From: Mycolicibacterium fortuitum subsp. fortuitum
GTDB taxonomy: Bacteria > Actinomycetota > Actinomycetes > Mycobacteriales > Mycobacteriaceae
Direction: 5' to 3'
Assembly (NCBI RefSeq): GCF_022179545.1
Contig: NZ_AP025518.1
Span: 5,642,001 to 5,706,000, forward strand
Length of the DNA: 64,000 nucleotides
Shown piece after piece: positions 12,604-33,967 of this stretch (the first letter of the stretch is position 1; each line of letters opens with the position of its first letter). The notes under the pieces were generated by a model. It searched no databases. It was not told the origin of the DNA and was given only the letters and a program-made list of their open reading frames with translations. The position numbers were made by a program, and so were the translations under genes.

Positions 12604-12759
12604 ATGTCCCGGTTTTCCCGCCTGCGCGACCGGCTGAAAGTCGCCGCGATGACCTGTTTCGTACGACTGCTGCGCCTGATCGTCGTCGTCGCCGAGTGGT
12701 GGCCCGACCGGCGCCGCGATCAACGGGGCGGCTCGATGGGCAGCGTGGGCCCGCCATAG
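12604..12759 (+). CDS. Small membrane-associated protein, predicted Zur-controlled
   Basis: Encodes 51 residues: a basic N-terminus (MSRFSRLRDRLK), a hydrophobic or amphipathic helix (residues about 13-32, with one Cys and interspersed Arg), then WWPDRRRD and a Gly/Pro-rich tail. No known domain is recognised. No Shine-Dalgarno is visible before ATG 12604, and the box ends four bases upstream, so a leaderless transcript is likely. The last 40 bases overlap the convergent mce gene. The strongest support is the position of the Zur box; protein evidence for translation is lacking. It could equally be a regulatory RNA or a terminal remnant. Confidence 0.5.
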   Translation: MSRFSRLRDRLKVAAMTCFVRLLRLIVVVAEWWPDRRRDQRGGSMGSVGPP

Positions 12760-13931
12760 GGGGTCGGGATGGTGTAGCGGCCCGCCGGCGTCGGATCGGC
12801 CGTGGTGGCCAGGTCCGCGCCCGCCGGCGGGCCCGCCGTGTCGTCGCCTGCCGGCCGCGGAGCATTGCGGGCGCCGCGAACCAGCAGGCTCGGATCGTCG
12901 TCGTGGCAGTACGTGTACAGGAACGGTTCGGGATAGTCAGCGGCCGAGGGCGGGCGCCGGGTCGTGCCGTAATCGCAGGCGTACCGCGGATAGATGTCAG
13001 CGGTCACCCACAGTCCGTGTTCGTGCATCGTGCTGATGAAGGCCTCCAGCGCCGAACCCCGGTAGTCGGGGAAGAGCGCGTCGAGCGCCGGCACCCGCAC
13101 ATAGGACAGCCGCGCGACGGTGGCCAGATTTCCCAGCAACTGCACCATGGTGTCGGAGTTGTCGGTGAACAGGTTGTCGATCGCGCCCAGCGTCTCCGGG
13201 GACCGGCCGAGCAGCGTCCGATAGCCGTCCTCCATCCCGGCCACACCCGTCAGCGTGTGGCGCAGATTGGTTGCCGTGGCGGCGATTCCCCCGTTCACAT
13301 CCACCGCCGAGGACAACACGATCCGGCTGCTGCGGATGATGCCCACCGTCTCCGGCAGCACCGAATCCAGTGTGGACAGCAGGAACATCCCGCCGTCGAC
13401 GATTGCGGAGAGCTTCTGTGGCCCGGCCTCACTCAGGCTCAGCTCGTCCTTGACCCGCTCCAGCTTCTGCGGATCCACCTGCGCCAGAACGCCGTCCGCG
13501 TGGGCCAGCAACTCGGCCATCGGGACCGGTACAGCGGTACGGTCGCGGGCGATCACGGCGCCGTCGACCAGATACGGGCCGCCGTCAGAGGCCGCCGAGA
13601 AATCGACGTACTGTTCGCCCGCCGCAGACAGGGCCGAGACCCGGACCGAACTCGACACCGGGATGCGCACGTCATCCGACACTCTCAGGACTGCCTCGAC
13701 ACCACCCGGCGTGAACGCGAGTTCCTCGACCTTGCCCACCCGCACCCCGCGCATGGTCACATCCTGATCGGGCAGCAGCCCGCCGGACTCCGAAAGCTGC
13801 ACCGTCACGCGGTATGTCGCCGACAATGGCCGTACCTGCAACACGCCGACCATGAGGTAGGCGGCCGACACGACCAGGGTGAGTGCCAACGCCGCCAGCG
13901 CGACCCAGGCACTGCGCGGGGGGCCGCTCAC
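12720..13931 (-). CDS. MCE family protein, sixth (MceF-like)
   Basis: A 403-residue protein with one N-terminal membrane anchor (AWVALAALALTLVVSAAYLMVG) and the MlaD/MCE domain at residues about 40-120 (GGLLPDQDVTMRGVRVGKVEEL). A helical needle-forming region follows, then a low-complexity Pro-rich tail. Six MCE proteins form a hexameric tube that carries lipids to the YrbE permease. GTG 13931 is chosen because it overlaps the previous stop as GTGA. It is the last gene of the 21-gene operon. Confidence 0.87.
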   Translation of the reverse strand: MSGPPRSAWVALAALALTLVVSAAYLMVGVLQVRPLSATYRVTVQLSESGGLLPDQDVTMRGVRVGKVEELAFTPGGVEAVLRVSDDVRIPVSSSVRVSALSAAGEQYVDFSAASDGGPYLVDGAVIARDRTAVPVPMAELLAHADGVLAQVDPQKLERVKDELSLSEAGPQKLSAIVDGGMFLLSTLDSVLPETVGIIRSSRIVLSSAVDVNGGIAATATNLRHTLTGVAGMEDGYRTLLGRSPETLGAIDNLFTDNSDTMVQLLGNLATVARLSYVRVPALDALFPDYRGSALEAFISTMHEHGLWVTADIYPRYACDYGTTRRPPSAADYPEPFLYTYCHDDDPSLLVRGARNAPRPAGDDTAGPPAGADLATTADPTPAGRYTIPTPYGGPTLPIEPPR

Positions 13932-15052
13932 GGTTGCGGCCCTCTGCCGACTACCCGTTCCTGCAGGCGCCAGAGTACGAACTTGATCGACCCGACGAGC
14001 TGATGCCAATCGGCCCGCTTGGGACCGTGCAGCCCGGGGTCCCCCGAGAACCCGGCATCCGGAATCGATCCGAGGACCAACCGGTCGATCCCGGCCGCCC
14101 CTGCCATCGACGTGCCCGCCGTCATCTTGATGAACGGGGCGTACAGCCGGTTCAGCGAGGCCAGGCTGGTCTGCGGGTCCACGACTACGTCGTTGAACGC
14201 GCGCGCGATGGTGTCCGCATCCGCGATCACGCTGCGGCCGCTGGCATCCGTTCCGGCGATGGACGGGAACTTGGCCAGGTTCTGCGAGATGTCACCGAGC
14301 GTGAGAACGAGGTCGGTCACCCGGCCGGTGTTGTCGGCCAGTGTCTCGGTGGCCGGCGCCGCGGCCTGGAGCAGTTCGCCGACCTCCTGGTTCTTGGAAG
14401 CCAACAGCTCGGCCAGTCGTGTGGTCTCGGTCATCGCGGAATCGATCTGTGCCGAGCGAGCATTGACCGTGCCGAGCAGCCGGCTCGATTTGGCCACCAG
14501 GTCACCGAAGGCGCGGCCATCTGGCCCGGCCGCCTTACCCATGCCGTTGACGATGTTGGTCAGGTTGTGGACCGCGCCACCGTTGACCAGGATCGCCGCC
14601 GAACTCAGCACCGACTCGACGGTCGCCGCCGCCGTGGTGGAATCGAGGCCGATGCTGTCGCCGTCTCGCAGTGAAGGCGTCCCGGCCTCGCCGTTGCGCG
14701 GCGGAACGATCGAGACGAACACGTCGCCCAGCGGTGTGGCCGAACGGAGTTCGGCTGTGCTGCCCACCGGCAGTCTGACATCGTCACTGATCCGCAGTGT
14801 CGTGACCGCGGCGAAATCGCGGGCCGCCATGTCCTCGACCTGCCCGATGTCGGCCCCGCCGAGCTTGACCTTGGCGTGCTCGGGCAGATTGAGCGCGTTG
14901 GCGAACACCGCTGTCAGCCGGTAGCCACCCGATCCGAGCCCGGGGGCAGGCAACGGCAGGTCCGCCAGACCGTTCGTGGCACACCCCGCGGTCAGCAGGG
15001 TTGCCGCAAACAGTCCCAGTAACCGGCGCAGATGTGCTTGTGCGGCAGTCAT
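13928..15052 (-). CDS. MCE family lipoprotein, fifth (MceE-like)
   Basis: A 374-residue protein with a lipobox signal (LFAATLLTAGCA, Cys near residue 24), followed by the MCE domain (LPEHAKVKLGGADIGQVED). The fifth MCE gene of actinobacterial operons is typically the lipoprotein LprK/MceE, which fits its place here. ATG 15052 overlaps the preceding stop as ATGA. The lipid anchor probably tethers the MCE tube to the outer leaflet of the plasma membrane. Confidence 0.88.
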   Translation of the reverse strand: MTAAQAHLRRLLGLFAATLLTAGCATNGLADLPLPAPGLGSGGYRLTAVFANALNLPEHAKVKLGGADIGQVEDMAARDFAAVTTLRISDDVRLPVGSTAELRSATPLGDVFVSIVPPRNGEAGTPSLRDGDSIGLDSTTAAATVESVLSSAAILVNGGAVHNLTNIVNGMGKAAGPDGRAFGDLVAKSSRLLGTVNARSAQIDSAMTETTRLAELLASKNQEVGELLQAAAPATETLADNTGRVTDLVLTLGDISQNLAKFPSIAGTDASGRSVIADADTIARAFNDVVVDPQTSLASLNRLYAPFIKMTAGTSMAGAAGIDRLVLGSIPDAGFSGDPGLHGPKRADWHQLVGSIKFVLWRLQERVVGRGPQP

Positions 15053-16164
15053 TTCTGGCCCATCGCCGCAAGACCGTCGAGCATGCTGGTCAGCCCGAAG
15101 TCCGGGCCGTAATCCTGCAGGGTGCCGGTGCTGCAACCGAGCTGGCGCAGACCCATCATGTTGCAGACCTCCTTGGCCATCTGGCCGTCGAACACCATGC
15201 GATCGGCCAGGAAATGCGCGCGGATGGCACCGTTGCGTTGATCGATCGCGTTGTAGAGGTTGTCGGCCATCAGCGGAAGCACGTCGAAGAACTCCGCCAG
15301 CTCGCGCTGGCGGTCGTTCAGGGTCTGCATGCTGGTGTCGCCGTTGGCGATTCCCTGCCTGATCAGATCCCGGTTCGCCGACAGGATCTGCCCGGTCTTC
15401 TCCACCACCTCGTTGAGTTGCCTGCCTGTGGTCCCCGAACCGAAGTCCTCGGCGGCCAGGATCTGGCTGAGTTGCCTCACCGTGGACCCGAATTCACGCA
15501 GTTTCGCGTCGTTGCCCGCCGCTGCGTCCAGTAGCGAACCGAGGTTGGTGATGATCGCGGTCACCTGTTGCCGGGTGCGAGCACCACCGTCCGAACTCAA
15601 CCGCAGTGCGCGCGACAGTTCGTCGAGGGCACCCCTGATCTGCTCACCGTGCCCGGAGACCAGACCGTCACCCGCGTTCTGCAGGTCGGCCACCGGACCG
15701 CCGCCGGCCCCGTCGCCGCGCAGAGAGGTCGCCAGCTTGTCCAGCATCCCGAGCACCCGGTCGAACTCGACCGGGGTCTTGGTGCGGTGCAGACCGATGG
15801 TGTCGCCGTTGCGCAGCGTCGGTCCCCCTCGGTACGGCGGTGACAGCTCGATCTGGCGGTCGGTCAGGATCGAGGTGGACAACGTCACCGCCTCGACGTC
15901 GGCTGGTATCGCGACGTTGTCGTCGACGGTGAAGTCGACCTCGGCATAGCTGCCCTTCGGGGTCACCCGGGTGACCTGGCCGACCGGAACTCCCAGTACT
16001 GCCACCAGATTTCCGACGTACAGCCCTGCCGCACTGTCGAACTGGGCGGTGACGGTGATGCTGCGGTCGCGATGGGTGATCAGATACCGGCCCGCGCCGG
16101 CGACCACCGCCAGTACGGCGATCAACGCGGCGGCGATCATCAGACGCCTGTGCCGGCCGATCAT
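15049..16164 (-). CDS. MCE family protein, fourth (MceD-like)
   Basis: A 371-residue protein with an N-terminal anchor (RRLMIAAALIAVLAVVAGAG) and an MCE domain (AAGLYVGNLVAVLGVPVGQV), then a long helical domain with GNGDTS-type spacing and paired Cys near the C-terminus. ATG 16164 overlaps the upstream stop by four bases. It contributes one subunit to the predicted six-protein channel. Confidence 0.87.
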   Translation of the reverse strand: MIGRHRRLMIAAALIAVLAVVAGAGRYLITHRDRSITVTAQFDSAAGLYVGNLVAVLGVPVGQVTRVTPKGSYAEVDFTVDDNVAIPADVEAVTLSTSILTDRQIELSPPYRGGPTLRNGDTIGLHRTKTPVEFDRVLGMLDKLATSLRGDGAGGGPVADLQNAGDGLVSGHGEQIRGALDELSRALRLSSDGGARTRQQVTAIITNLGSLLDAAAGNDAKLREFGSTVRQLSQILAAEDFGSGTTGRQLNEVVEKTGQILSANRDLIRQGIANGDTSMQTLNDRQRELAEFFDVLPLMADNLYNAIDQRNGAIRAHFLADRMVFDGQMAKEVCNMMGLRQLGCSTGTLQDYGPDFGLTSMLDGLAAMGQK

Positions 16165-17171
16165 TTGCAGTCCTTCAGATAGGGGATCATCCCGAACTGC
16201 TCTGCTCGCCCGCTGATGGCACACATCCAGGAATCGATCAGGGCGCCTGCCGGGGCGTTGGTCTCGATCGCATTGCCGAACCCGGTGGCGTTCGCGATCT
16301 GACGGATCGGGACGGGCGCGATCTGCAGGAGGTTCCGGAACAACGCATCCTGCTCGGCGAACTTCCCGCTCAGCTGCTCCATGGTGGCGAGCACGCCGTC
16401 CAGTGCGGCCCGGTCGTGCACCGCGATGGTGTGCAGCGAGCCCACCACCGACTGCAGGGACTGCATCAGCGCATGAAAGGCGGCCGAGCGCGCCACGAAC
16501 TCGCCCACGAGTTCCTGGCCCTGACGGATGAAATTGCCGATCTCGGACTGCTGGCGCCGCAACATGCTGGTGACGCGTTCGGTGTTGAGCAGCAGACTGC
16601 CCAACTGGTCGCGACGCTGCGCGATCACCGACGACAACGCGCGCACGTTGTCCATCGCCTGGGGTACGACCGCCGGCAGTCCGTCCAGTTGCCGGCTCAG
16701 GACGTCGAGCGAGGCAGCGATCCGATCGGCGTCGACCTGCTCGAAGGTTGTTGTCGAATCCGCAAGGGCGGCTTGCAGATCGTAGGGGACCTCGGTGTGG
16801 GCCAGGTCGATGGTGCGGTCGTCGGGTCCCCCGTCGCCGCCCGGCCGCAGGTCGAGATAACGGGAGCCGAACAATGTGGTCACCTTGATCGCGGCACGGG
16901 TGTCGCGGCCCACCGGCACGTCGTCGCGCACGCGGATGTCGGCCTCGACGTGGTCCCCGGCGAGACGGACGGCGGTGACCGTTCCCACCGGGATGCCCGC
17001 GACCGCCACGATGTCGTCGGCACGCAAGGCAGCCGCCTGGACGAATTCGGCTGTGTAGCGGTGATATCCGATGCCGGCATCCTTGACCAGGAGCATCGCC
17101 GCGATCAGCCCTCCCACCGTGAGGACGGCCAGTAGTCCGAGCCAGGCCTTCCTGGAAGCCTGGTCAGCCAT
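16161..17171 (-). CDS. MCE family protein, third (MceC-like)
   Basis: A 336-residue protein with an N-terminal anchor (AWLGLLAVLTVGGLIAAMLL) and an MCE domain (ALRADDIVAVAGIPVGTVTAV). A coiled helical region rich in Arg/Gln (RRDQLGSLLLNTERV) follows, and the C-terminus has two Cys. ATG 17171 overlaps the upstream stop region by eight bases. It is shorter than most MceC proteins, which often carry a long Pro-rich tail. Confidence 0.87.
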   Translation of the reverse strand: MADQASRKAWLGLLAVLTVGGLIAAMLLVKDAGIGYHRYTAEFVQAAALRADDIVAVAGIPVGTVTAVRLAGDHVEADIRVRDDVPVGRDTRAAIKVTTLFGSRYLDLRPGGDGGPDDRTIDLAHTEVPYDLQAALADSTTTFEQVDADRIAASLDVLSRQLDGLPAVVPQAMDNVRALSSVIAQRRDQLGSLLLNTERVTSMLRRQQSEIGNFIRQGQELVGEFVARSAAFHALMQSLQSVVGSLHTIAVHDRAALDGVLATMEQLSGKFAEQDALFRNLLQIAPVPIRQIANATGFGNAIETNAPAGALIDSWMCAISGRAEQFGMIPYLKDCK

Positions 17172-18249
17172 TGGCCATGCTCCTGCACTTGGGGGTGTGC
17201 TTGGCGGTACCGCCTGGCGTCGCGGCATCGACGACGATCGGCACGATGTCGTTGAGCCCGGGGAAGAACCCGTAGGCGTTGACGTCACACGCGTAGGCGT
17301 TCATGTAGGCGCCTTCCCCGAAAACCCGCGACAATCCCTTCAACAGCAGCGGTGTGTTGAGCCCCGTGTAGGCGATCTGCGGTTCGATGTCGAGCATGTG
17401 GCGGGTGTAGCCGGGCTCGCGGTTGAGCATGTCCCGGATCGTCGGTTGCACATCCTGCGCGATCCGAGACAGATTGCCCGCCACGGCCGTCATCGAGCCC
17501 AGAGACGACACCAGAGGTTCACGGCGATTGTCGAAGGCCGCCACCGCATTCCGGGCAGCCGTGATGGTGCGCTCGAAGTTGTCGTTCTGGCCGGACAGGT
17601 TGCCCACCACGCCGTCCATGCCGGTGATGACCCGGTCGAGCGTTCGGTCCTGACCCACGAAGGTCTCGGTGAGAACCGATGTCTGGTCGACCAACTGGGT
17701 GATGGCGGCGGTGTCGCCCTGCAGCGATCCGACGACGGCGTTGGTGAGGTTGTTCACCTGCTCGGGGTCCAGGACGGCGAACAACGGCTCGTAACCGTTG
17801 AGCAGGGTGCCGATGTCGAAAGACGGCTCGGTGCGGTCCACCCCGATCACCGCCCCGACCGGCAGCTCCCCGACCGGTCCTTCACGACCGCGGTCCAATG
17901 CGAGATATCGCTGTCCGACGATGTTCTGGTAGTTGACCGACGCGACGGTTCCGCTGGTGAGGCGGTGGCCGTCCTGCACGATGAACGACACCTTCGCCAG
18001 GGTGCCCTGCAACTCGATCGCCTGGACGCGGCCCACCCTGACCCCGGCCACCCGCACGTCGTCGCCCTCTCGCAGTCCGAAGACGTCGGTGAACACCGCC
18101 GAGTAGGACGTGGCCGGGCCGCTGACGTCGCGCCGCAGCGTGACATAGACGAGCCAGGTCAGCACCGTGGCCACCACCAGGAACAGGGACAGGCCCAGCA
18201 GCGGGCCGCGGCGTCGTATCGAGTCGGCCGCCAGGGCAGATCTGAACAT
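17164..18249 (-). CDS. MCE family protein, second (MceB-like)
   Basis: A 361-residue protein beginning MFRSALAADSIRRRGP, with an anchor segment near residues 17-36 and an MCE domain (FGLREGDDVRVAGVRVGRVQAI). AGGAGACC before ATG 18249 is a good ribosome site, and only 10 bases separate it from the upstream gene. A helical region follows, with the C-terminal Cys pair (YACDVNA and PKCRSM) often seen in MceB proteins. Confidence 0.88.
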   Translation of the reverse strand: MFRSALAADSIRRRGPLLGLSLFLVVATVLTWLVYVTLRRDVSGPATSYSAVFTDVFGLREGDDVRVAGVRVGRVQAIELQGTLAKVSFIVQDGHRLTSGTVASVNYQNIVGQRYLALDRGREGPVGELPVGAVIGVDRTEPSFDIGTLLNGYEPLFAVLDPEQVNNLTNAVVGSLQGDTAAITQLVDQTSVLTETFVGQDRTLDRVITGMDGVVGNLSGQNDNFERTITAARNAVAAFDNRREPLVSSLGSMTAVAGNLSRIAQDVQPTIRDMLNREPGYTRHMLDIEPQIAYTGLNTPLLLKGLSRVFGEGAYMNAYACDVNAYGFFPGLNDIVPIVVDAATPGGTAKHTPKCRSMANG

Positions 18250-18259
18250 CGTTGGTCTC

Positions 18260-19654
18260 CTACGGCTTGGGTTCGGGTGCGGGCAGCGGGGTTCGCGTGA
18301 CGACCGTCCCGCGTGCGACGGGACCCAGAAGCAGTTGAGTGGCCACCGTCGCGGGCTCTCCGACAAGCTCGCCCAGCCGGTCGCGCTCCTGGCCGCTGCC
18401 AACTGGGCCGACGTTGCCGCCGAATGAGGCGGGTGCCGCGCCACCGGGTACCGCGACCAGGTTGCCGTTCTCCCCGATGGCTGTACCCGGCGGTGGCGCC
18501 AGATCCGGTGGCGGCTGATAGTTCTGCGGCAGCAGGACTTCGGGGAGGTCTGCCCGGACAGGCACCTCGGGCGCGGTGAAGCAGCTCGGCCCCACCAGCG
18601 CTCCGTATCGCGGGCAGTCGGCGCGGGTGTAGGTGAACGAGGGCGTGAACGAGAGATTCACCCGGCCACGCGCGGTGTCGAGTTCGGAGTCCCAGACCTC
18701 GGCGAAAAACGTATCGGAGAACCTGGTCATCCGCTGGCTGATCGGCACGAAATGCTGGGCGTTCTGGGCCAGTACACCCAGCACCGGAGTCAGGTCGGTG
18801 GTGATGTGGACCAGCCGGTCGGTCTGATTGTCCAGCGATCGGTCGCTGGTACCCGTGGTGTGCGCGGCCGCCGCCAGGAAACCCTCGAGGCTACGGCGCT
18901 GTTCGACGAGGGTCCGCATGGGCACGACCGCCTCATGCAACGCCGAGACCAGGTCCGGCGCCGTCTGAGACAGACCGCGCGCAGCTTCTGACAACGCAGA
19001 AATCGTCGACGGCCCTTCATCGGTCGCGACGACGTGATTCAGCTCATCGATGAGCCGGTTGAGCTCGGCCGCCGATGTCAGCAGTTGCCCGCGCCGGTTG
19101 TTGGTGGCTGCCGCGACGGCGGCGAGCACGCCGACGGTGTGATCGTCACGCCCCCGCCCCGCTGCCGCGAGGATGTCGCGCAGTTTGGTGAGGGTGGTCT
19201 GGAACAAGACCGTCGGCAGAGCCGTGTCCTCGGGGATCCGCCCACCGTCACGGATCGCACCGGCCGGGCCGCCGGGGGTCTCGACCAGTTGCACCGAGGA
19301 CACCGCGAAGGCGTTGCTGGGTACCACCCGGGCCGCCACACCGGCCGGAATGCCATGTGCGTAGGAGGATTCCAACCGGATGTGAACTTGACTCGGCTGC
19401 TCGCCGGTGCCGGGCGTGACCCCTTCCACCGCGCCGACCAGCACCCCGCGGAACTTCACATCCGAGCGGGCCGGCAGACCGTCGCCGATGTTGCGCAGTT
19501 CGGCCACCACGTGCAGGTTGCGGTCGAACAGCCCGGCCGATTTGACCAGCAGCACCGAGGCCACTACACCCACGACGACGAGCGCCGCCGCACCGCGCCG
19601 GATCAACTGCCTGCCGGTGAGGTGGTTCCCGTCCAGATCGACCATGCTCGCCAC
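18260..19654 (-). CDS. MCE family protein, first (MceA-like)
   Basis: A 464-residue protein, the longest of the six. It has a hydrophobic anchor (ALVVVGVVASVLLVKSAGLF) near residue 20, then the MCE domain (DGLPARSDVKFRGVLVGAVEGV), a helical domain, and a Pro-rich C-terminus (QPPPDLAPPPG). GTG 19654 lies two bases after the upstream stop and suits translational coupling; ATG 19645 is an alternative three codons later. In M. tuberculosis the first MCE protein is proposed to sit at the substrate entry. Confidence 0.86.
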   Translation of the reverse strand: MASMVDLDGNHLTGRQLIRRGAAALVVVGVVASVLLVKSAGLFDRNLHVVAELRNIGDGLPARSDVKFRGVLVGAVEGVTPGTGEQPSQVHIRLESSYAHGIPAGVAARVVPSNAFAVSSVQLVETPGGPAGAIRDGGRIPEDTALPTVLFQTTLTKLRDILAAAGRGRDDHTVGVLAAVAAATNNRRGQLLTSAAELNRLIDELNHVVATDEGPSTISALSEAARGLSQTAPDLVSALHEAVVPMRTLVEQRRSLEGFLAAAAHTTGTSDRSLDNQTDRLVHITTDLTPVLGVLAQNAQHFVPISQRMTRFSDTFFAEVWDSELDTARGRVNLSFTPSFTYTRADCPRYGALVGPSCFTAPEVPVRADLPEVLLPQNYQPPPDLAPPPGTAIGENGNLVAVPGGAAPASFGGNVGPVGSGQERDRLGELVGEPATVATQLLLGPVARGTVVTRTPLPAPEPKP

Positions 19655-19656
19655 GG

Positions 19657-20469
19657 TCAACCGCCCAGCCTTGCACCGGAGTCCACGCTCCACAGCGCCA
19701 TGGTCAACAGCATGTTGGCGATGATCACCACGGTGATGCTGGCCCGCATGGCGTGCCCCGCGGCGACACCCACGCCCTCCGGGCCGCCGCCGGCACAGAA
19801 GCCGTAGTAGCACTGCACCGTTGCCGCGATCCAGACGAACACCACGGCCTTCACCGTGGAGTACACGATGTCGGGGCCGCTGATCAGCAAGGTGAAGTAG
19901 TGCAGGTAGGGGCCGAGCGACCCACCGCTGATGAAGCCCACCATGATCTGGCAGGACAGATAGCAGATGCCGAGACACGCCGCGTACAGGGGAACGATCG
20001 CGACCACCGAGGCCAGCAGGCGGGTGGTGATGAGATACGGGATCGGCCTGATCGCAAGCGAATTCATCGCGTCGATCTCCTCGGAGATCCGCATCGAGCC
20101 GATCTGGGTGGTGAACCGGCAGCCCGCCTGTACCGCGAACGCCAGAGCCGCCATGATCGGTGCCAGCTCACGGGTGGTGACCAGCGAGGAGATGATCCCG
20201 GTCGCCGGGCCGAGCCCGAGCAGATTCAGGAAGTCATAGCCTTCGACCGCGATCAGGGCGCCCGTGGTGATGCCGAGGACGAGGATCACCCCGGCGGTGC
20301 CGCCGCCCACCACGATCGAGCCGTTGCCCCAGGTGATGTCGGAGACCAGCCGGAGGAACTCCCGGCGGTACCTGCGCAGTACCAGCGGCACACCGGCAAG
20401 GGCGTGCGTGGAGAAGGCGACGAAATGTCCGAAGCGTGCCACCGGACGCGTCATCACGGGCTGGGTCAT
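19657..20469 (-). CDS. MlaE-family ABC permease, YrbEB-like
   Basis: A 270-residue polytopic protein of the MlaE/YrbE family. The conserved core includes VTTRELAPIMAALAFAVQAGCRFTT, then RISEEIDAMNSLAIRP, the EEIDA motif being the family hallmark. The second of two permeases, it begins one base after the end of the first. The pair should bind an MceG-type ATPase (encoded elsewhere, as is usual) to drive lipid import through the MCE tube. Confidence 0.92.
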   Translation of the reverse strand: MTQPVMTRPVARFGHFVAFSTHALAGVPLVLRRYRREFLRLVSDITWGNGSIVVGGGTAGVILVLGITTGALIAVEGYDFLNLLGLGPATGIISSLVTTRELAPIMAALAFAVQAGCRFTTQIGSMRISEEIDAMNSLAIRPIPYLITTRLLASVVAIVPLYAACLGICYLSCQIMVGFISGGSLGPYLHYFTLLISGPDIVYSTVKAVVFVWIAATVQCYYGFCAGGGPEGVGVAAGHAMRASITVVIIANMLLTMALWSVDSGARLGG

Positions 20470-20470
20470 C

Positions 20471-25659: not shown

Positions 25660-26162
25660 CTCGCCGCGCCCGCACCGGTCAAGGTCCGGCTGAGCCTGCG
25701 GTGCCGGTGGGTGAAGAAGGCCGAGAGGACCCGACTCATCACCTTTCCCCAGCCGGGGATCAGGCCCATCGGCGCCTGCGGCGCCAGCGTGATCTCGTCG
25801 GTGACGACGGTCTTGTCCCCCAACGGTTCCAGGGTGCGGTGATGAACCCAGATCCGCATTCCGGTCATGACGGACTCTTCCCGGAACATGCGGCCGGGAT
25901 CGATCTTGGCGATTGTGATGTCGTCGAAGCCGAACGGCAGGACGCCGAACAGCAGCAGGAAGCTCTTGCCGATGCGGGTACCCGGGGTGACGTCGGCGAT
26001 CGACCGGCCCCGGAACTGGCGCGGCATGGTCATCTTGAGATAGGGACCCATCTCGTCATTGATGCCTTCCTGGGTGGTCACGCGGTCCCACACGAGGTCG
26101 ACGGGACAGTCGATCTCGCTGACCTTTCGGAAGACGTGCTCTTGCGTGTGAATCGATCGCAT
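25656..26162 (-). CDS. SRPBCC family protein
   Basis: A 168-residue START-like protein with the first strand FRKVSEIDCPVDLVWDRV and a final helix rich in basic residues. Such proteins bind hydrophobic ligands; some act as cyclases or lipid carriers. ATG 26162 has a GAGGAA ribosome site and lies 13 bases after the acyltransferase gene, the largest gap in the operon. Its role in an acyl-amine pathway is unknown. Confidence 0.72.
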   Translation of the reverse strand: MRSIHTQEHVFRKVSEIDCPVDLVWDRVTTQEGINDEMGPYLKMTMPRQFRGRSIADVTPGTRIGKSFLLLFGVLPFGFDDITIAKIDPGRMFREESVMTGMRIWVHHRTLEPLGDKTVVTDEITLAPQAPMGLIPGWGKVMSRVLSAFFTHRHRRLSRTLTGAGAAR

Positions 26163-26175
26163 CTCGGGTGTTCCT

Positions 26176-26835: not shown

Positions 26836-28334
26836 GCGGTGGTGAATTCCCTTCCCCGGGCACGCAGGATCCGTTGCCCCTCAGTGGCGATGGCGGCGAT
26901 CACGTCAGCGGCGGCCTCGGGGCTGACCAACGGGTTGACGAAGGTGAGCTTGAGCGCCTGAGTGCCTGCCGCAGTCGAACGGCCGAGCACGGCACGACCT
27001 GTTTGAGCCAGCGCCGTTCGGATCGCCTGGTTGGCATCGTCGCATTCGGCATCGGACAGGTCGGGATGCTGCCAACGCACGACGACGGTGTTGGTGGTGA
27101 CGGGTGCCAGCAGTGCCAGGCGTGGGTGATCGGACACCGCCGACGCGGCTGCGGCCGCAGCCGCACACGTGGCGTCGATCATCTCCCCCACCCGCTGCCT
27201 ACCCAGTGCCCGCAATGTCACGAACACCTTGAGAGCGTCGAACCGACGGGTGGTCTGCAGCGACTTTCCGACCAGGTTGACCACGTCTTCGGCCGAATCC
27301 TGTAGCGGATTCAGGTAATCGGCGTGATCGGCCAATATGTCGAAGGATTCGCTCCGTCGAACCAGCAGTGCGCTACAGCTGATCGCCTGAAACAACAGCT
27401 TGTGGTAGTCGACGGCGATGGAGTCGGCGTGCTCGATTCCGCGCAGCAGCTGACGGTGGGTGGCACTGAACGCCAGGCAACCACCTGCGCAGGCGTCGAC
27501 ATGGGTCCAGATACCGTGCTGCCGGGCGATCGTGATCGCCTCCGGCAGCGGATCGATCGCGCCGAAGTCGGTGGTTCCGGCGGTGAGCACGAGCGCCATG
27601 ATCGGTGTGCCGGCCTCGCCCGCCCGATCGATGCAATCACTGAGTGCGTCGGTACGCATGCGCCCGGCCGCATCGGTCGCCACCTCGACCACCGCGCCCG
27701 GCAGCCCCAGAATCCGCAGCGCCTGCCGCACCGAGAAGTGGGTCTGACGAGTACACAACACCCGCCAGGCTCCGGCCCCGGCCGGAAGCCCCGCAGTCAT
27801 GTCGGAACCGAACTCGTCCCGGGCGAACAGGTCGCGGGCGATCATCAGCGCCTGCAGGTTGGATTGCGTTCCGCCGCTGGTGAACGTTCCGTCGGCGTCA
27901 TCGCCGTATCCGAGTGTGGCGCACAGGTCGCGGATGACCTTCTGCTCGACCGCGGTGGCCGCCGGGGCCTGGTCGAACGAGTCCAGCGACTGGTTGAAGG
28001 CGCTGACCAGGATCTCGGCCGCCAGTGACGACACCGTCGGAGGGCAGTGCAGATGCGCCAGATAGCCGAGATGGGTCACGACGGCAGAGCGTCCGGACAG
28101 CAGGCCGGCGGCCTCACCGAGCGCGCGCGGCAGTCCGATTCCCGATGGCACGTCGAGGCTGAACTCCTCGACCGCCCGGTCCAACTCTGCGTAACCGGAT
28201 ACCAGTCCCGGACTCGCCGGATCACGCAACTCGGTCCCGGTCCAGATGGCCGCCAGGGTCAGAGCTTCGCGATACCCGGCCAGACCGCCGGGTGTGAGAA
28301 AGTCGCCCGCGAACGGACTCTCGTCGAGTGTCAC
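26832..28334 (-). CDS. PLP-dependent decarboxylase, L-2,4-diaminobutyrate decarboxylase-like
   Basis: A 500-residue group II decarboxylase. TSGGTQSNLQALMIARD (about residue 152) and THVDACAGGCLAF (about residue 277) are cofactor-site stretches, and the Schiff-base lysine is Lys 312 in VDYHKLLFQ. The SNLQAL and DYHK variants resemble 2,4-diaminobutyrate decarboxylases more than glutamate decarboxylases. With the aminotransferase upstream it would produce 1,3-diaminopropane. Its stop and start overlap both neighbours by four bases. Substrate (diaminobutyrate, ornithine-like or aromatic) is not proven by sequence. Confidence 0.82.
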   Translation of the reverse strand: MTLDESPFAGDFLTPGGLAGYREALTLAAIWTGTELRDPASPGLVSGYAELDRAVEEFSLDVPSGIGLPRALGEAAGLLSGRSAVVTHLGYLAHLHCPPTVSSLAAEILVSAFNQSLDSFDQAPAATAVEQKVIRDLCATLGYGDDADGTFTSGGTQSNLQALMIARDLFARDEFGSDMTAGLPAGAGAWRVLCTRQTHFSVRQALRILGLPGAVVEVATDAAGRMRTDALSDCIDRAGEAGTPIMALVLTAGTTDFGAIDPLPEAITIARQHGIWTHVDACAGGCLAFSATHRQLLRGIEHADSIAVDYHKLLFQAISCSALLVRRSESFDILADHADYLNPLQDSAEDVVNLVGKSLQTTRRFDALKVFVTLRALGRQRVGEMIDATCAAAAAAASAVSDHPRLALLAPVTTNTVVVRWQHPDLSDAECDDANQAIRTALAQTGRAVLGRSTAAGTQALKLTFVNPLVSPEAAADVIAAIATEGQRILRARGREFTTA

Positions 28335-29659
28335 CTTGCCCCCATCAGGACGCTGTCTGCCGGCCGTTGCCGCTGGACCTGTCGCACCGCGGCGTCGAAG
28401 GCGGCGAGCGCAGCCGCCATGTCGACTTCGTCGATGGTCAGCGGCGGCAGGAAGCGCACCACGTTCCCGTACTGTCCGCCGGTCTCGACGATCAGGCCGT
28501 GCTGCAGGCAGGCCAGCTGGATGCGTTGCGCCAGTTCGGCATCGGGGGCCGCCGCGCCGTGTTGCCCCGTAACCGTCGGGTCGACGATCTCGGCCGCCAG
28601 CATCAAACCGGCACCACGCACGTCGCCCACGACCTCTGACTGCGCCGCAACCGATTTCAATCCATCAAGAAACGCTGCGCCCGTCGCATGGACGCGGTCG
28701 GACAACCGCGTCTCGACAGCGAACCTGATCACCGCGCCGGCGGCGGCGAACGCCATCGCATTTCCGCGGAACGTGCCCGTGAACGCCCCTGGCTCCCACA
28801 CGTCATAGCGGTCCCGGATCACCAGCACGGCGATGGGGAGTCCAGACCCCAAGCCTTTCGAGATCACCATCATGTCGGGTTCGACATCGCAGCGCTGGAA
28901 CGCCCAGGCCGGCCCGGTGCGGAACATCCCCGCCTGGACCTCGTCGGCGATCAGCGGAACATCGAGGCGGGTTGCCGTGTCTCGCAACGCCTTACCCCAA
29001 CGGGACGGCGCGGGGATCACTCCGCCCTCCCCGAGCACGAACTCCGCCAGGACCGAGGCCGGTGCGGTGATGCCCGAGTGTGGCCGGGCCAGGTTCTCGA
29101 CAGCGGCGATCGCGAGGTCCACTCCACGCTCTCCCCCGACCCCGAAGGGGCACCGGTAGTCCTGGGGATATGGCAGGAAGGTGGCGTGCGGCGCCAGCAC
29201 TACGGGTTGGCGCCGCAGGCCGCCGCCGGAACTGGCTGCCCGGGCGGCCCTGGTGCAGCCGTGGAAGCCGCCTTGCACGCCGATGTGTTCGCGTCCACCG
29301 GTGGCGACCTCGGCGAGCATCAGGGCTGCCTCGACGGCACTGGCACCGCTCGGCGAGCACAGGTGCACGCGGCCTTCCCGCGCCAGCCCCGGCGGCAGGA
29401 TGGACAGCAGATCTTCGACGAATCGTTCCCTGGTCGGGGTGTGGAAGTCCAGGGACTGCCACGGTTCTCCCGATTCGAGAGTCTTGATCACCGCCTCGCG
29501 GACAACGGGGTGGTTCCAGCCCAGAGACATCGCCCCGGCCGCAGCCAGACAGTCGACGTACCAGCGGCCGTCGGCGTCACGCAGCCGGGCACCGGCCGCC
29601 TCGATCGGCCTGATCGGAAGCCGCCGGGAGTAGGTCGCCGCCGATGATTCCCGCATCAC
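28331..29659 (-). CDS. Class III aminotransferase, diaminobutyrate-2-oxoglutarate type
   Basis: A 442-residue class III PLP aminotransferase. Asp 239 of PLIADEVQAGMFRTG contacts the pyridine nitrogen, and Lys 268 of VISKGLGSG is the Schiff base. The closest general match is the diaminobutyrate:2-oxoglutarate aminotransferase (EctB/Dat) group, making L-2,4-diaminobutyrate from aspartate semialdehyde. No ectA or ectC is present and a decarboxylase gene overlaps its end, so the dat-ddc pathway to 1,3-diaminopropane is favoured over ectoine. Confidence 0.82.
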   Translation of the reverse strand: MMRESSAATYSRRLPIRPIEAAGARLRDADGRWYVDCLAAAGAMSLGWNHPVVREAVIKTLESGEPWQSLDFHTPTRERFVEDLLSILPPGLAREGRVHLCSPSGASAVEAALMLAEVATGGREHIGVQGGFHGCTRAARAASSGGGLRRQPVVLAPHATFLPYPQDYRCPFGVGGERGVDLAIAAVENLARPHSGITAPASVLAEFVLGEGGVIPAPSRWGKALRDTATRLDVPLIADEVQAGMFRTGPAWAFQRCDVEPDMMVISKGLGSGLPIAVLVIRDRYDVWEPGAFTGTFRGNAMAFAAAGAVIRFAVETRLSDRVHATGAAFLDGLKSVAAQSEVVGDVRGAGLMLAAEIVDPTVTGQHGAAAPDAELAQRIQLACLQHGLIVETGGQYGNVVRFLPPLTIDEVDMAAALAAFDAAVRQVQRQRPADSVLMGAR

Positions 29660-30717
29660 AGCGCCTCCCGCGGGTGGGTGAGAAGCCGTCTCAGGGAGGC
29701 CCTCAGCGACCGATCTTCGGTGGCCCAGAATCCGCCGTCACGCGGAATCGCCTCGGCCAGGCGACGGCGAGCCTTACCGAGCTGGTGGTAGGGCAGCTTC
29801 GGGAACAGGTGGTGCACCGCGTGATAGCGCAGGCCGAGCGGTGCCCACAGTTCCCCGATGACCGGCATCGACGGATGGTCGATGGAATCGAGCACCTGCT
29901 CGGGAAACGTCATTCGCTCGTTGCGGCTCTCGTAGCGGTGCGCGGCCAGCACCCGGATCCAGTTGACGAACAGCACCGCTGCGACGATCACGTAGGCCTC
30001 GGCGAGCCGGTTCGGCGAATACACCCCGCCGACCAGCAGTGCCAGCATTGCCACCAGGTAGGCGAAGCAGGCGATTTCCTGCACCAACCAGGATCGGGGA
30101 ATGCGCCCTTCGGGCAGTTTGCGCACGAAGTCCGCGTCGATCATCAGCGCCGACGCCCGAGTCAGGACATAGGACCGAATCGGCGGGACCAACCAGGACA
30201 GCGGCGCCAACACCAGAAACCTCAGCACGAAGACGAGCGGACCGAGCAACGCGGTGAAGGGCAACGTGATCACCCGCCAGCGCGGTTCGGTCGCATATGG
30301 GACGTACTCACCGTCCTCGGTGGTTCCGTAGGTGCGCGAGCCGTGATGATCCTGGTGGAACTCGTAGGTGAATTGCGGCACCAGCAAGGGGATTCCGCAC
30401 ACCAGATGCCATACGGCCGAGAACCTGCGCAGCTCTTCGGGTGCGTGCACGATCTCGTGGACGAACAGCACCGCGCGGTAGAACGCCAGGGCGGCGATCA
30501 GCATGCATCCGATTCCGAGCGGTGAGAGCAGTCGGTCGGCCGGACACAACAGGAACGCGGTGTAGCCGATCACCACGCACGCGGTGAGATCGACCCAATA
30601 GATCCAGCCGCGCCGCGCGGTCAGGTCCGCGATCAGCGACCGCGCATCGGCCATCGATATGCCGAGCACGTCCTTGGAGCCCGTCCCGGCCGCTGTCTGG
30701 CGGGTATCAGTGTTCAT
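29656..30717 (-). CDS. Membrane fatty acid desaturase
   Basis: A 353-residue membrane desaturase with the three His boxes of the family: HEIVHA (HxxxH), HQDHHG (HxxHH) and HAVHHLF (HxxHH), embedded among hydrophobic segments. It probably introduces a double bond in the acyl chain used by this operon, or hydroxylates it; the sequence does not show which. It overlaps both neighbours by four bases. Confidence 0.87.
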   Translation of the reverse strand: MNTDTRQTAAGTGSKDVLGISMADARSLIADLTARRGWIYWVDLTACVVIGYTAFLLCPADRLLSPLGIGCMLIAALAFYRAVLFVHEIVHAPEELRRFSAVWHLVCGIPLLVPQFTYEFHQDHHGSRTYGTTEDGEYVPYATEPRWRVITLPFTALLGPLVFVLRFLVLAPLSWLVPPIRSYVLTRASALMIDADFVRKLPEGRIPRSWLVQEIACFAYLVAMLALLVGGVYSPNRLAEAYVIVAAVLFVNWIRVLAAHRYESRNERMTFPEQVLDSIDHPSMPVIGELWAPLGLRYHAVHHLFPKLPYHQLGKARRRLAEAIPRDGGFWATEDRSLRASLRRLLTHPREAL

Positions 30718-31694
30718 CGGATGAACTCCGTAATCAACTCTGCAGCAGACATTCTCGGCATTCCGAGCTCCCGCTCGGCTTTGCCCGAGGCGTAGTACAC
30801 ATGCCGTCCCATCAACTCGACGTTCTCGGGCACCAGCGCGTCGTCATGCCGGGGGTGGCCGATCAGGTCACGTATCACCCGGTTCCCTGCCCCGGCAGTC
30901 CGGAACAGGCCCATGGGCAGTGTCCGGACGCGATGGCTCCGCCCGACGGCTTCGACCAGCAGTTCGGCGATCCGCCGATACGTCAGGTTGACGCTGGACA
31001 GGATGTACCGCTCACCGGATCCGCCCTTGACCATCGCGGCGGTGGCGCCGGCGACGAAGTCCCGGGCTGAGCAGACCGCTGTCCCGCCGGGGGGCACGCC
31101 GCGCAGCAGCCCACGCCGTGCGGCGGTCACCAGCGCCTGCCAGGATCTCGGTGGCCCGGCGGCCGGCGCGAAAACCGCTGCGGGATTCACCACCACGACG
31201 TCGAGCCCGCGCTCGCCGAAGTCGAGCATCACGCGCTCGCCGGCCCTCTTGGTGGCGGCGTACACGTTGTCGAGCACCGAATCCCTGACGTCGAACTGCT
31301 CGTCGGCAACCACACCATCGGGGGGATATCCGATGGCCGCCGTCGACGACACGTGTACGACTCGCCGGACCCCGAGGCGCAGCGCGCTCTGTGCCACGTG
31401 ATAGGTGCCCAGCACGTTGGTGTTCCAGATGGTGTGGGCCAGGCGCGAATTCGGCGAAGCTATGCCGGCGAGGTGATACACCTGCGAGATACTCCGCATG
31501 GCCGCATGGACACTGGCCGCATCGGTGATGTCGGCACGGACCACCTCGGCGGCGCCGCCCAAACCCCCCGGCTGGGCCGCACCGTCGTCTGGTCCGGTCA
31601 TGACGGTGACCGCTTCACCGTTGCGAATCAGCTCGGCGACCAGCGCACTGCCCAGGTACCCAGCTCCTCCCGTGACGAGGATTCGGCCGCTCAT
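30714..31694 (-). CDS. NAD-dependent epimerase/dehydratase (extended SDR)
   Basis: A 326-residue extended short-chain dehydrogenase: GGAGYLG cofactor motif near residue 8, catalytic YAATK (Tyr-x3-Lys) near residue 150, and a DHFR/dihydroflavonol-reductase-like layout. ATG 31694 shares its A with the last base of the preceding stop codon. A longer frame upstream lacks coding character. The reaction, reduction or epimerisation of an acyl or sugar intermediate, is unknown. Confidence 0.82.
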   Translation of the reverse strand: MSGRILVTGGAGYLGSALVAELIRNGEAVTVMTGPDDGAAQPGGLGGAAEVVRADITDAASVHAAMRSISQVYHLAGIASPNSRLAHTIWNTNVLGTYHVAQSALRLGVRRVVHVSSTAAIGYPPDGVVADEQFDVRDSVLDNVYAATKRAGERVMLDFGERGLDVVVVNPAAVFAPAAGPPRSWQALVTAARRGLLRGVPPGGTAVCSARDFVAGATAAMVKGGSGERYILSSVNLTYRRIAELLVEAVGRSHRVRTLPMGLFRTAGAGNRVIRDLIGHPRHDDALVPENVELMGRHVYYASGKAERELGMPRMSAAELITEFIR

Positions 31695-32839
31695 CACAGC
31701 ACCTTCTGGTAAACGCGGTGCCGTTTGTCCGGCTCGGTCTTCATCTGGGCGGCAAGAGAGTTCGACCACACATTCTCTTCGTGCACCCATGTCGTCGCCA
31801 CCGAGGAATACCCGCTGCCGGTGCTTGCCCTGACGATCTCGCCGGCCAGGATCCGGCCGATACCCGCCCCGAACCGGGTTTCGGACGCACCGATCAGGAC
31901 GACGACGGCGGTGTCGACGCCGCGGATCCGGCCCCGGCGTTTGGCCGCGATGCGCATCAGCATCGACGGGGTGAGCCGGCCGGACCGCCCGGCGATCTCG
32001 TTCACGTCGGGCAGCATCAACAAGAACCCGACGGGAGCATCGTCCGCCTCGACGATCCGGACGATTTGGGGATCGATCAGGGGCCGCATCTGTTCGGCCA
32101 TCCCGGCGAACACCGCCTTGCTCAGCGGGACGTTCTCGGGATGGCGGGCGAAGGAGTCGTTGTAGAGGCCGCGAAGAGTCTCCAGTTCGTTGTCGAAATC
32201 CTTCATCCGAACGGACCGCACCGTCGCGCCCTGTGCGGCCATCACCGCATCGGCACGTTTGACGAGCCGTTGCTGGATGGCATTGTGAGCCCCGGTGTTC
32301 CAGCGGTAGGAGGTACTGTCGAATTTCTTTCGGTACCCGGCCGACTCGACGAGCCGCAGGTAATACGGCGGGTTGTAGGGCTGCATGAGGGTCGGCGGGG
32401 TGTCGTACCCCTCGGCAAGCAGGCCGACTTCCTCACGTGTCGAGTAGCTGTAGGGCCCGATCATCCTGCCCATGCCACGGCGGCGCGCCCAGTTCTCCGC
32501 CGTTTCCAGCAGTGCACCGGCCACGTCTTGTTGATCGGCACTTTCGAAATGCCCGAAGAATCCGCAGTCGCCGTAGCGCTTGACGTACTCGGAGTCGATA
32601 CTGGCCGATATCCGCCCGACGGGTCTTTCACCCTGGTAGGCAATGAAATTGGCGACTTCGACCTCGCGGTGCAGCGCGTTCTTCCTGGCGTCCATCTTGG
32701 TCCGCATGCCGCGGCGCAGCACCGGCCGCCACCGGGAATCGCCGTGGTAGAGGGCCCATGGAAGGCCCACGAACCTTCTGGCTTCCGCGTGCGAGGTGAC
32801 CTCACGGACGTCCAGCGAGGTCTTCAGATCACTTGGCAC
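31694..32839 (-). CDS. GNAT-like acyltransferase, large
   Basis: A 381-residue protein. An acetyl-CoA-binding-like segment (AYQGERPVGRISASIDSEY, then a GMGRMIGPYSYST stretch) suggests a GNAT fold with a second degenerate copy in the C-terminal half (VGFLLMLPDVNE). It resembles YghO-type proteins that often lie next to lipid biosynthesis genes. It shares 11 bases with the preceding gene. It may N- or O-acylate the product; the substrate is unknown. Confidence 0.65.
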   Translation of the reverse strand: MPSDLKTSLDVREVTSHAEARRFVGLPWALYHGDSRWRPVLRRGMRTKMDARKNALHREVEVANFIAYQGERPVGRISASIDSEYVKRYGDCGFFGHFESADQQDVAGALLETAENWARRRGMGRMIGPYSYSTREEVGLLAEGYDTPPTLMQPYNPPYYLRLVESAGYRKKFDSTSYRWNTGAHNAIQQRLVKRADAVMAAQGATVRSVRMKDFDNELETLRGLYNDSFARHPENVPLSKAVFAGMAEQMRPLIDPQIVRIVEADDAPVGFLLMLPDVNEIAGRSGRLTPSMLMRIAAKRRGRIRGVDTAVVVLIGASETRFGAGIGRILAGEIVRASTGSGYSSVATTWVHEENVWSNSLAAQMKTEPDKRHRVYQKVL

Positions 32840-33935
32840 GAACGATTCCCAGGTCGTACGCCAGCTCCGGGTTGCCCTTGCTCTTCCACAGCGCCCCGTC
32901 CAGGTAGAAGTGGTGCAGCACGAACATCAGCGGGACCGCGAAGATGACGGTGTCCAACTGCCCGGCGAGAATGCCCAGCAACGCCAGCCCCGCCACGTAG
33001 AGCGGTAGCGCCTTGCGCGTCGAGAGCCGGGCCAGCAGCAGCTTCTTCTCGCCGGGGTCGGTCGAGGCAGCGAAGCGGGTGTTGTTCCTGGTCCAGTTGA
33101 TCAGGTGGTACTGCAGGCTGTGGGTGGTCGTCGCGATCAGGATGAGCGCGAACAGGTCCGACACCAGCAGGTAGGACAAGTTGTACGAGAGGGCCGCGAT
33201 GACGAACGTGGCCACCGCCATCGGAGGCAGCGTCGTCTGCCCGTCACGCCGCAGCTTGACCTGTTCGGCGACCGCCAGTGCGAGCAACACGGCGGCCACC
33301 GCGTACGCGACGACGATGAGCACGCCGGGTATGGGCGGTACCGGCACACTCAGGTTCGAGAACGGCAGCCGGTGGCCGAACACCTCGTACTCGGAGAAGT
33401 GCAGCCCATGGCTCGCCCGATAGAGAACCGGAGCCAGGCAGGCGGCATACAGCGCGTACTTGAGCCGGTTTCGGGGTCCCTTGTACCCGTTCTTGGCCGC
33501 GTAGATGTTCATGATGCCGAAGTGCTGCTTGAGGACGTGAAAGACCTGCCAGTAAGCCCAGATTGCCAACAGCGGCACCAACCACCCACCGAACCAGAGC
33601 ACGCCCACGATCGTGGCGACGACAGCGAAGCTCAGTACGTAATGCAACCGGTACCGGGACCGTTCCCGCGGATCGAGCCACACGCGCACCGTCGTGGTCA
33701 ACACGTGCGGGAGGTCGGACAGTAACGAAAATGCCACCGCTCCAACAAGAAACACGCCCTTGTGGCTTTCGGCGGCGAACAGGATCGCCGAAAGCAATGC
33801 CCCCAGACCGAATACGAAATAGATGTCGACTCGGCGACTGACGAACCATCCGGGCTGATGTTCGCCGTCTTTCAGTCGCGGTTGCTGAGTGTCCGCGGCG
33901 GTCCCGGCCGTCCCGACGGGCGTTCCAGCGGCCAT
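32829..33935 (-). CDS. Polytopic membrane protein with conserved His motifs, first gene of the operon
   Basis: A 368-residue integral membrane protein with about eight hydrophobic segments. His-rich stretches lie near the membrane interface: DLPHV, VFHVLKQHFG, THSLQYHLINW and LHHFYLDGALWK. The pattern resembles His-cluster di-metal membrane oxygenases, so an oxidative role on a lipid is a reasonable guess, but I do not recognise the family. ATG 33935 has AAGGGGG before it; the frame stays open upstream only through the Zur box. It opens the 21-gene run. Confidence 0.72.
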   Translation of the reverse strand: MAAGTPVGTAGTAADTQQPRLKDGEHQPGWFVSRRVDIYFVFGLGALLSAILFAAESHKGVFLVGAVAFSLLSDLPHVLTTTVRVWLDPRERSRYRLHYVLSFAVVATIVGVLWFGGWLVPLLAIWAYWQVFHVLKQHFGIMNIYAAKNGYKGPRNRLKYALYAACLAPVLYRASHGLHFSEYEVFGHRLPFSNLSVPVPPIPGVLIVVAYAVAAVLLALAVAEQVKLRRDGQTTLPPMAVATFVIAALSYNLSYLLVSDLFALILIATTTHSLQYHLINWTRNNTRFAASTDPGEKKLLLARLSTRKALPLYVAGLALLGILAGQLDTVIFAVPLMFVLHHFYLDGALWKSKGNPELAYDLGIVRAK

Positions 33936-33946
33936 CGCAACCCCCT

Positions 33947-33967
33947 TAATGAGAATGGTTATCGTTA
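33947..33967 (-). promoter_or_regulatory. Zur box upstream of the 21-gene lipid/Mce operon
   Basis: Half-sites TAATGAGAAT and GTTATCGTTA surround a G, with 7 of 10 positions symmetric. The GTTATCGTTA half is the same as in the znuA box. It ends 11 bases before the first gene's start codon, overlapping its leader. The 127 bases from 33968 to 34094 that separate it from the divergent mas-like gene hold no other feature I can see. Confidence 0.8.

Follow-up and report, generated by a model that had tools for sequence, protein, structure and literature searches.

A Zur-box-headed operon of Mycolicibacterium fortuitum joining a candidate lipid zincophore pathway to an Mce transporter

Introduction

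Mycobacterium abscessus has six predicted boxes for the zinc repressor Zur and a Zur regulon of 32 genes, all of which are lowered by a zinc-bringing compound (PMC8951752, 2022). In that study, expression of MAB_1680-MAB_1701 drops by log2 3.61 to 10.30 on addition of the zinc-carrying compound; MAB_1680 is the first gene of this operon, with a Zur box in front, and Table 2 labels the whole 'Zn-siderophore biosynthesis and transport'. Here we analyze a 64,000-nucleotide window of the genome of Mycolicibacterium fortuitum subsp. fortuitum (G000:C1:5642001-5706000; genome 6.41 Mb, single contig), to which all coordinates refer unless a genome or locus is named, and within it an operon of 21 genes (g1-g21). 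By the descriptions in Table 2, the two operons encode the same 21 functions, one by one and in the same order, and in both the first gene's promoter contains a Zur box (PMC8951752). A preliminary description of this stretch knew of no described system with such a composition, a claim that we reject because the gene list of PMC8951752 is identical in content and order, and a Zn-siderophore is proposed there; neither the zinc regulation nor the zincophore idea is new. What our analysis adds is the exchange of uptake modules behind a common biosynthetic core, the FeeM fold of g7, the His-rich character of g1 and a small open reading frame (ORF) at the operon's tail. Our preferred reading, which as a complete chain we consider plausible but a little short of probable, is that zinc starvation induces the synthesis, export and re-uptake of an N-acylated zincophore of the 1,3-diaminopropane type.

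Two other mycobacterial metallophore systems provide points of comparison. In mycobactin biosynthesis, an acyl-AMP ligase (MbtM), an acyl carrier protein (ACP; MbtL) and an N-acyltransferase (MbtK) add the fatty tail to the metallophore. The window operon encodes the same three kinds of protein but lacks mycobactin's salicylate, nonribosomal peptide synthetase (NRPS) and lysine scaffold, and has diamine enzymes instead. The kupyaphore/isonitrile lipopeptide cluster has an acyl-AMP ligase, an ACP and a PPE neighbor, and needs an NRPS, an isonitrile synthase and FcoT. In contrast, the Pfam matches of the 21 window proteins include no NRPS, isonitrile synthase or FcoT domain. The kupyaphore is likewise a lipid-tailed mycobacterial metallophore reported for zinc (PMC9374683). 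We considered whether the operon is itself a kupyaphore cluster and rejected this, as there is no NRPS or FcoT in the operon and the genome has a separate FcoT locus at 4.23 Mb.

Results and Discussion

Layout and orthology of the operon

The 21 ORFs lie on the minus strand from 33935 down to 12720 (Table 1), where the preliminary description had placed them, and its statement that no gap exceeds 13 bases is uncontradicted. With the tabulated starts, all 20 junctions are overlaps or gaps of at most 7 bases, lengths that are indications only because the longest start was chosen, which produced overlaps of 97, 86 and 64 bases, and because four of the assigned Mce starts, several of which are approximate, are not start codons. 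The g2, g3, g8 and g16-g20 proteins were queried with starts shortened by judgement (the g2 query began 9 residues inside its ORF), and their family assignment is based on the domains detected. Pfam matches comprise a GNAT protein, an extended short-chain dehydrogenase/reductase (SDR) epimerase, a fatty acid desaturase, a class-III aminotransferase, a pyridoxal phosphate (PLP)-dependent decarboxylase, an ATP-binding cassette (ABC) ATPase and ABC-2 permease, an ACP, an AMP-binding enzyme, two MlaE and six MlaD/Mce proteins, the last eight being the two YrbE permeases and six Mce proteins of an Mce transporter. The g1, g7, g8 and g9 proteins gave no Pfam match at E 0.001.

The M. abscessus operon has a 22nd gene, MAB_1701, whereas the window operon has no MAB_1701 counterpart: at that place a Zur box precedes a small ORF that converges with the operon, and beyond it lie genes for YcsF and a nitroreductase on the opposite strand. 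In G092, a genome probably of the M. abscessus group, the operon proteins are 64-89% identical, protein by protein, to those of the window; the gene after mceF, in the MAB_1701 position (L049:3694-4593), resembles a metal-dependent hydrolase by eye and is not found downstream in the window genome. The operon layout and its orthology to the published M. abscessus operon are secure.

Table 1. Features of the operon and its surroundings, with positions in the 64,000-nucleotide window
Feature	Position	Strand	Assignment	Basis or remark
znuA-znuC-znuB	7306..9928	-	zinc importer	PF01297, PF00005, PF00950; Zur boxes 9898-9918 and 9944-9964
Second Zur box	12579..12599	+	Zur box at 3' end of operon	
Small ORF	12604..12759	+	51-aa ORF behind second Zur box	convergent with mceF, overlaps its end
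g21	12720..14009	-	MceF	PF02470
g20	13928..15079	-	MceE	PF02470; start approximate
g19	15049..16176	-	MceD	PF02470; start approximate
g18	16161..17201	-	MceC	PF02470; start approximate
g17	17164..18282	-	MceB	PF02470; start approximate
g16	18260..19660	-	MceA	PF02470 and PF11887; start approximate
g15	19657..20469	-	YrbEB permease	PF02405
g14	20471..21307	-	YrbEA permease	PF02405
g13	21304..22992	-	acyl-AMP ligase (PRK07768/MbtM group)	PF00501
g12	22929..23177	-	acyl carrier protein	PF00550, DSL motif
g11	23185..23955	-	ABC-2 permease	PF12698
g10	23952..24899	-	ABC exporter ATPase	PF00005, Walker A and LSGG
g9	24907..25659	-	lipoprotein	lipobox LGGC at residue 18
g8	25656..26261	-	SRPBCC-like protein (weak)	PF10604 at E 0.028, under cut-off
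g7	26176..26835	-	FeeM/LasI-fold N-acyltransferase	
g6	26832..28334	-	L-2,4-diaminobutyrate decarboxylase-like (RhbB/DesA type)	PF00282
g5	28331..29659	-	diaminobutyrate-2-oxoglutarate aminotransferase-like	PF00202
g4	29656..30717	-	membrane fatty acid desaturase/hydroxylase family	PF00487, His boxes
g3	30714..31790	-	NAD-dependent epimerase/dehydratase (extended SDR)	PF01370
g2	31694..32839	-	GNAT-family acyltransferase, 381 aa	PF00583
g1	32829..33935	-	multi-helix membrane protein of unknown family	invariant His/Asp set; alignment A2, structure model
Operon Zur box	33947..33967		palindrome	exact consensus on both strands
-10 hexamer	33975..33980	-	TACGTT	just upstream of operon Zur box
-35 hexamer	33998..34003	-	TTGACA	
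Divergent gene	34095..34631	+	Mce-associated membrane protein-like, 178 aa	label presumed

Zur control

The box in front of g1 is an exact match to the Mycobacteriaceae Zur consensus on either strand, and the half-site TAACGATAACC is present both in it and in the box that lies at 9898-9918, where znuA starts, as previously noted for this stretch. Such matches are concentrated here. With one mismatch allowed, the window contains 13, compared with an average of 0.21 and a maximum of 2 after shuffling, and the whole genome contains 13 exact matches against none for a reversed-pattern control. These 13 fall at nine places, five of which lie inside the window, that is, in 1% of the genome. The other four, with gene names assigned by reading, are smtB-zur (L013), a site upstream of a PPE gene that includes a His-rich stretch (L014), a box overlapping the start of a 155-aa ORF (L020) and L012, which lies within an apparent coding region and is taken for a chance match.

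The arrangement is conserved. In all 14 mycobacterial relatives read, the operon box is present at 0 or 1 mismatch, and in 13 of them (the exception being G237) it is accompanied by a TTGACA-17-TACGTT promoter; the corresponding Nocardia and Segniliparus loci have a Zur box with one mismatch. Zur control of the operon is near-certain. That zinc starvation induces the operon, as the preliminary description proposed, agrees with the lowering of the orthologous operon when zinc enters, a response measured in M. abscessus only (PMC8951752). Within that operon, MAB_1693-1698 differ in a dosRS mutant (PMC10034137).

One core behind different uptake modules

Outside mycobacteria the genes of the operon do not stay together as a set of 21. 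The part shared by mycobacteria, Segniliparus and Nocardia is a core of g1-g13, of which g9 was not detected in Nocardia. Thus the gene set first described for this stretch, with its diaminobutyrate (DABA)-type aminotransferase and decarboxylase, its FeeM-fold acyltransferase with ACP and acyl-AMP ligase, its exporter pair and its Mce system, holds for the window but is not a fixed unit beyond mycobacteria. Segniliparus retains g1-g13 at 46-76% identity, and directly after g13, where mycobacteria have Mce, it has a PE-like ORF followed by a PPE gene (by reading); in the 40 kb read, the window's Mce and YrbE proteins found no match at E 1e-4. The PPE assignment (L060:2804-4354 in the Segniliparus-like genome G778) is also supported by resemblance to PPE proteins encoded in the window genome, where its best full-length match is the PPE protein encoded beside FcoT. 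PE-PPE proteins are able to act as uptake channels. Nocardia retains the core at 46-73% identity, closely followed by yrbE-yrbE-mceA-F and a Mam-like gene.

To place the permeases, YrbEA and YrbEB trees of 26 rows each were built from the full-length pairs of four genomes and the G237 pair, a partial MlaE match of G092 (2130003) being left out. The mycobacterial operon-linked copies form one clade, with support of 81/92 for YrbEA and 100/99 for YrbEB, and the operon-linked Nocardia copy is placed in another part of both trees. A single origin of the four linked rows is rejected by the approximately unbiased (AU) test with p values of 5e-78 and 6e-7 for the two trees, the tested group having been set by linkage to the core and earlier identities having already hinted at the outcome. 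As the linked permeases are not of single origin, Mce was either recruited twice or swapped. The presence of different Mce systems, and once of a PE-PPE pair, behind the same core is the strongest argument that the product of the core is handled by the uptake module.

This pattern bears on two alternatives. The Mce part could import host or environmental lipids as a carbon or membrane supply, sharing with an unrelated biosynthesis unit only its promoter. Lipid import is the known role of Mce systems, and the Segniliparus core stands without an adjoining Mce gene; moreover, MAB_1693-1699 are induced 6.2-7.2 log2-fold in M. abscessus biofilms, for which the authors suggest acyl chains from matrix lipids as the import substrate (PMC8586431). 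Against this, two Mce lineages have joined one biosynthetic core, and the gene order is conserved in mycobacteria, which leads us to regard the explanation as improbable. Alternatively, the zinc-starved cell might remodel its envelope by making an amino-lipid as a substitute for, or an addition to, envelope lipids whose synthesis depends on zinc enzymes; the ABC pair would place it in the outer layer and Mce would recycle it, with no zinc being carried. The desaturase, epimerase, acyl-AMP ligase and Mce proteins all suit lipid metabolism, the biofilm induction of the orthologous Mce genes fits as well (PMC8951752, PMC8586431), and Zur regulons include zinc-sparing replacements such as ribosomal proteins (PMC8951752). 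An exporter combined with varied uptake modules (two Mce lineages and PE-PPE) on one core is nevertheless better suited to a molecule that is released and recovered, and we consider envelope remodelling unlikely.

Biosynthetic proteins and the proposed pathway

By VIA-align, g7 is closest to FeeM and the acyl-homoserine lactone (AHL) synthases and has their version of the GNAT fold, which bears out its initial labelling as FeeM-like; its identity to the FeeM N-acyl amino acid synthase and the AHL synthases is only 8-13%, and its predicted acceptor is a diamine. The g13 ligase scores above the cut-off of PRK07768, with the MbtM model second and below its cut-off, and its best solved matches are chains of the fatty acyl-AMP ligase (FAAL) type. 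The g5 and g6 proteins resemble a DABA aminotransferase/decarboxylase pair: the nearest solved chain to g5 is 6rl5, and g6 has a DxHK motif and the solved relatives 5o5c and 2qma. Named relatives of g2 are mostly N-acetyltransferases, and a cluster named M. fortuitum is 98% identical to it; g3 scores far under the cut-off of the HpnA model, and g4 has the His boxes HEIVH, HQDHH and HAVHH. For g1 there is no Pfam or NCBIfam match at E 0.001; its structure model has a mean confidence (pLDDT) of 89.1, and His77, 133, 138, 272, 277, 341 and 342 together with Asp74 and 346 are invariant in alignment A2 (36 sequences). No family in Pfam or NCBIfam and no solved relative was found for g9. The g10 orthologue has been described as DrrA (PMC8951752).

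Synthesis of an N-acyl diamine is likely, and we propose the following sequence of events. When zinc is scarce, Zur would leave its site at 33947-33967, which closely follows the -10 hexamer, and all 21 genes would be co-transcribed. The g5 and g6 enzymes would convert aspartate semialdehyde to 2,4-diaminobutyrate and then to 1,3-diaminopropane, while g13 would activate a fatty acid and load it on the ACP g12. The acyl chain could then be moved onto the amine by g7, and the second GNAT protein, g2, may acylate it again. Oxidation or other tailoring of the lipid by g3, g4 and g1, the last a His-rich membrane protein, would provide zinc ligands; g8 and g9 may pass the lipid on to g10-g11 for export, and the YrbE/Mce proteins g14-g21 would bring the zinc-loaded lipid back through the envelope. 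The zinc binding of the product and the direction of Mce transport are the steps that we infer, as is the identity of the product itself. The broader notion of a new, NRPS-free class of lipid zincophore (an N-acylated, further oxidised 1,3-diaminopropane), made by a 13-gene core that is coupled to differing envelope uptake machines, namely Mce of two lineages in mycobacteria and Nocardia and a PE-PPE pair in Segniliparus, is more tentative and we offer it as a possibility.

The kinship of FeeM with the AHL synthases by fold also raises the possibility of a secreted signal or weapon, i.e., a diffusible N-acyl amine made under zinc stress as a signal or antibiotic, with Mce merely co-regulated and importing other lipids. 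No regulator or resistance domain is found among the Pfam matches of the 21 proteins, and the joining of Mce to the same core from two lineages is hard to explain by co-regulation alone, so that we judge this alternative quite improbable.

Several observations weigh against the zincophore proposal. Plain N-acyl-diaminopropane is a weak chelator, and therefore g1-g4 would have to supply further ligands. The substrates known for Mce systems are lipids rather than metallophores. In the open-access literature we found no paper identifying the product of the operon and no measurement of product, zinc binding or transport. The enzyme assignments are themselves imperfect: the best NCBI models score below cut-off for g5 (PRK06938, 473.2 against 671; TIGR00709, 370.8 against 401.6 bits) and for g6 (NF052646, 361.5 against 900 bits), Foldseek ranks ordinary GNATs first for g7, and the g1 model has no clear match in the PDB. 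Loading of the ACP by g13 is not certain, because g13 belongs to a subfamily that NCBI names CoA ligase and because, between two aligned stretches, it is about 22 residues shorter than the FAAL chain 6ulx, near what we take to be the place of the FAAL-specific insertion. In Segniliparus, four MlaE matches lie on another contig, and since Mce loci thus exist elsewhere in its genome, the PE-PPE pair may add to Mce rather than replace it. In the genome of the window, moreover, FcoT and a PPE gene lie side by side at 4.23 Mb, which suggests an isonitrile lipopeptide cluster, another proposed zinc metallophore. Finally, most mycobacteria lack the operon, as 377 of 396 genomes of the genus have no g7 match.

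Distribution among mycobacteria

The genome sets of genus, family, order and class, and the loci L001-L011, are samples rather than a census. The 19 genus genomes with a g7 match comprise 17 with at least 70% identity, among them the window's own, together with G246 (48%) and G314 (25%). Only four of 397 genomes of the order have a match, all of them from the same genus, and g1, searched at E 1e-30, has matches in five of 401 family genomes, of which three belong to the same genus and the other two match Segniliparus rugosus and Nocardia sp. CDC159, respectively. At the class level, alignment A2 retrieved the window's own genome only (1 of 394), a weak negative because at most five candidates were scored per genome among the matches listed and because a Streptomyces relative at 46% exists. 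A wide spread beyond the family was thus not seen in the sampled genus, order, family and class genomes, with the class-level result carrying little weight.

Where the operon occurs, its order is constant: g1-g18 are arranged identically in all 14 loci besides the window (L001-L011, G237, G220 and G092). The window's own g1-g18 are 94-100% identical to those of M. senegalense. The g19-g21 genes were read in G237, G220, G092, G063 (the genome of L006) and G297, the last from g9 to g21 only; the strong matches G088, G310 and G050 were left out of the gene-order count. We rejected G246 and G314 as operon carriers. In G314, 20 kb contained no operon gene at E 1e-6, and in 50 kb of G246 the g7 relative is accompanied only by distant FAAL-like and ABC-like genes at 29-31% identity. 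The g7 relative of G246 has the FAAL-like gene as its neighbor and lacks the remainder of the operon (L041, G246:C10:120000-139999), possibly representing a second FeeM-ligase pair.

A small ORF behind the second Zur box

The interval between the second Zur box and the start of the small ORF, at the operon's 3' end, is four bases. The box (0-1 mismatch) and a conserved ORF of 51-60 aa with one hydrophobic stretch are found together in seven of the ten relatives whose 3' end was examined: G701, G337, G297 and G063 by script, G300 and G193 by eye and G231 by motif, its frame meeting an N. In the other three (G237, G220, G092) no second box was found at the 3' end. In the 34 codons outside mceF, the differences between the window and four relatives fall preferentially at third positions (12 of 19, 9 of 15, 18 of 37 and 8 of 12), but in the most distant relative (L085), nonsynonymous codon changes (15) exceed synonymous ones (11).

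The surrounding zinc island

The window is a zinc island, with the operon lying amid znuABC, CobW genes and zinc-free ribosomal proteins. Downstream of a Zur box, 9974-12560 holds genes for a CobW GTPase, a nitroreductase and YcsF, and around another box at 42440-44670 there is a set of zinc-free ribosomal proteins (by reading) with a CobW-like gene. Adjoining the operon, a P1-type metal ATPase and a DUF1490 gene resembling CtpC-PacL1 occupy 34645-37117, with a Zur-like box of one mismatch at 37097-37117; PacL1 has a role in zinc resistance (PMC9374683). An iron uptake set of an FhuF-like protein, an ABC protein and a periplasmic siderophore-type binding protein lies inside the zinc island at 38867-42406. 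In M. avium ssp. paratuberculosis, a zinc-responsive genomic island likewise combines an importer, cobW and metallophore genes, but those named for the latter are sidA/B/G (Eckelt 2014, cited in PMC6103462).

The gene divergent from the operon gave no confident family in Pfam, and its label in Table 1 is our presumption; it is retained in L001-L006 and G237 and was not seen in L007-L011, G220 and G092. Elsewhere in the genome, the PPE gene preceded by a Zur box (L014, G000:C1:4266509-4269529) contains a His/Asp-rich stretch, and M. abscessus MAB_0809c is also a PPE gene with a Zur box (PMC8951752). In a Zur paper on M. smegmatis the term 'mce' does not occur (PMC7174638).

Implications

In this operon, an Mce system is linked to a biosynthetic pathway that is defined and under zinc control. 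To our knowledge, the substrates of most Mce systems are unknown. The passage of zinc across the mycobacterial outer membrane is likewise little explored (PMC13098993), and the link between Mce and a defined pathway makes both questions testable. The two Mce lineages and the PE-PPE pair behind one core are independent evidence for the product being handled by the uptake module. If the reading of an NRPS-free zincophore is true, a metallophore would be an Mce substrate, Mce and PE-PPE systems would be interchangeable in its uptake, and a micro-ORF under a Zur box of its own would stand at the tail of the operon.

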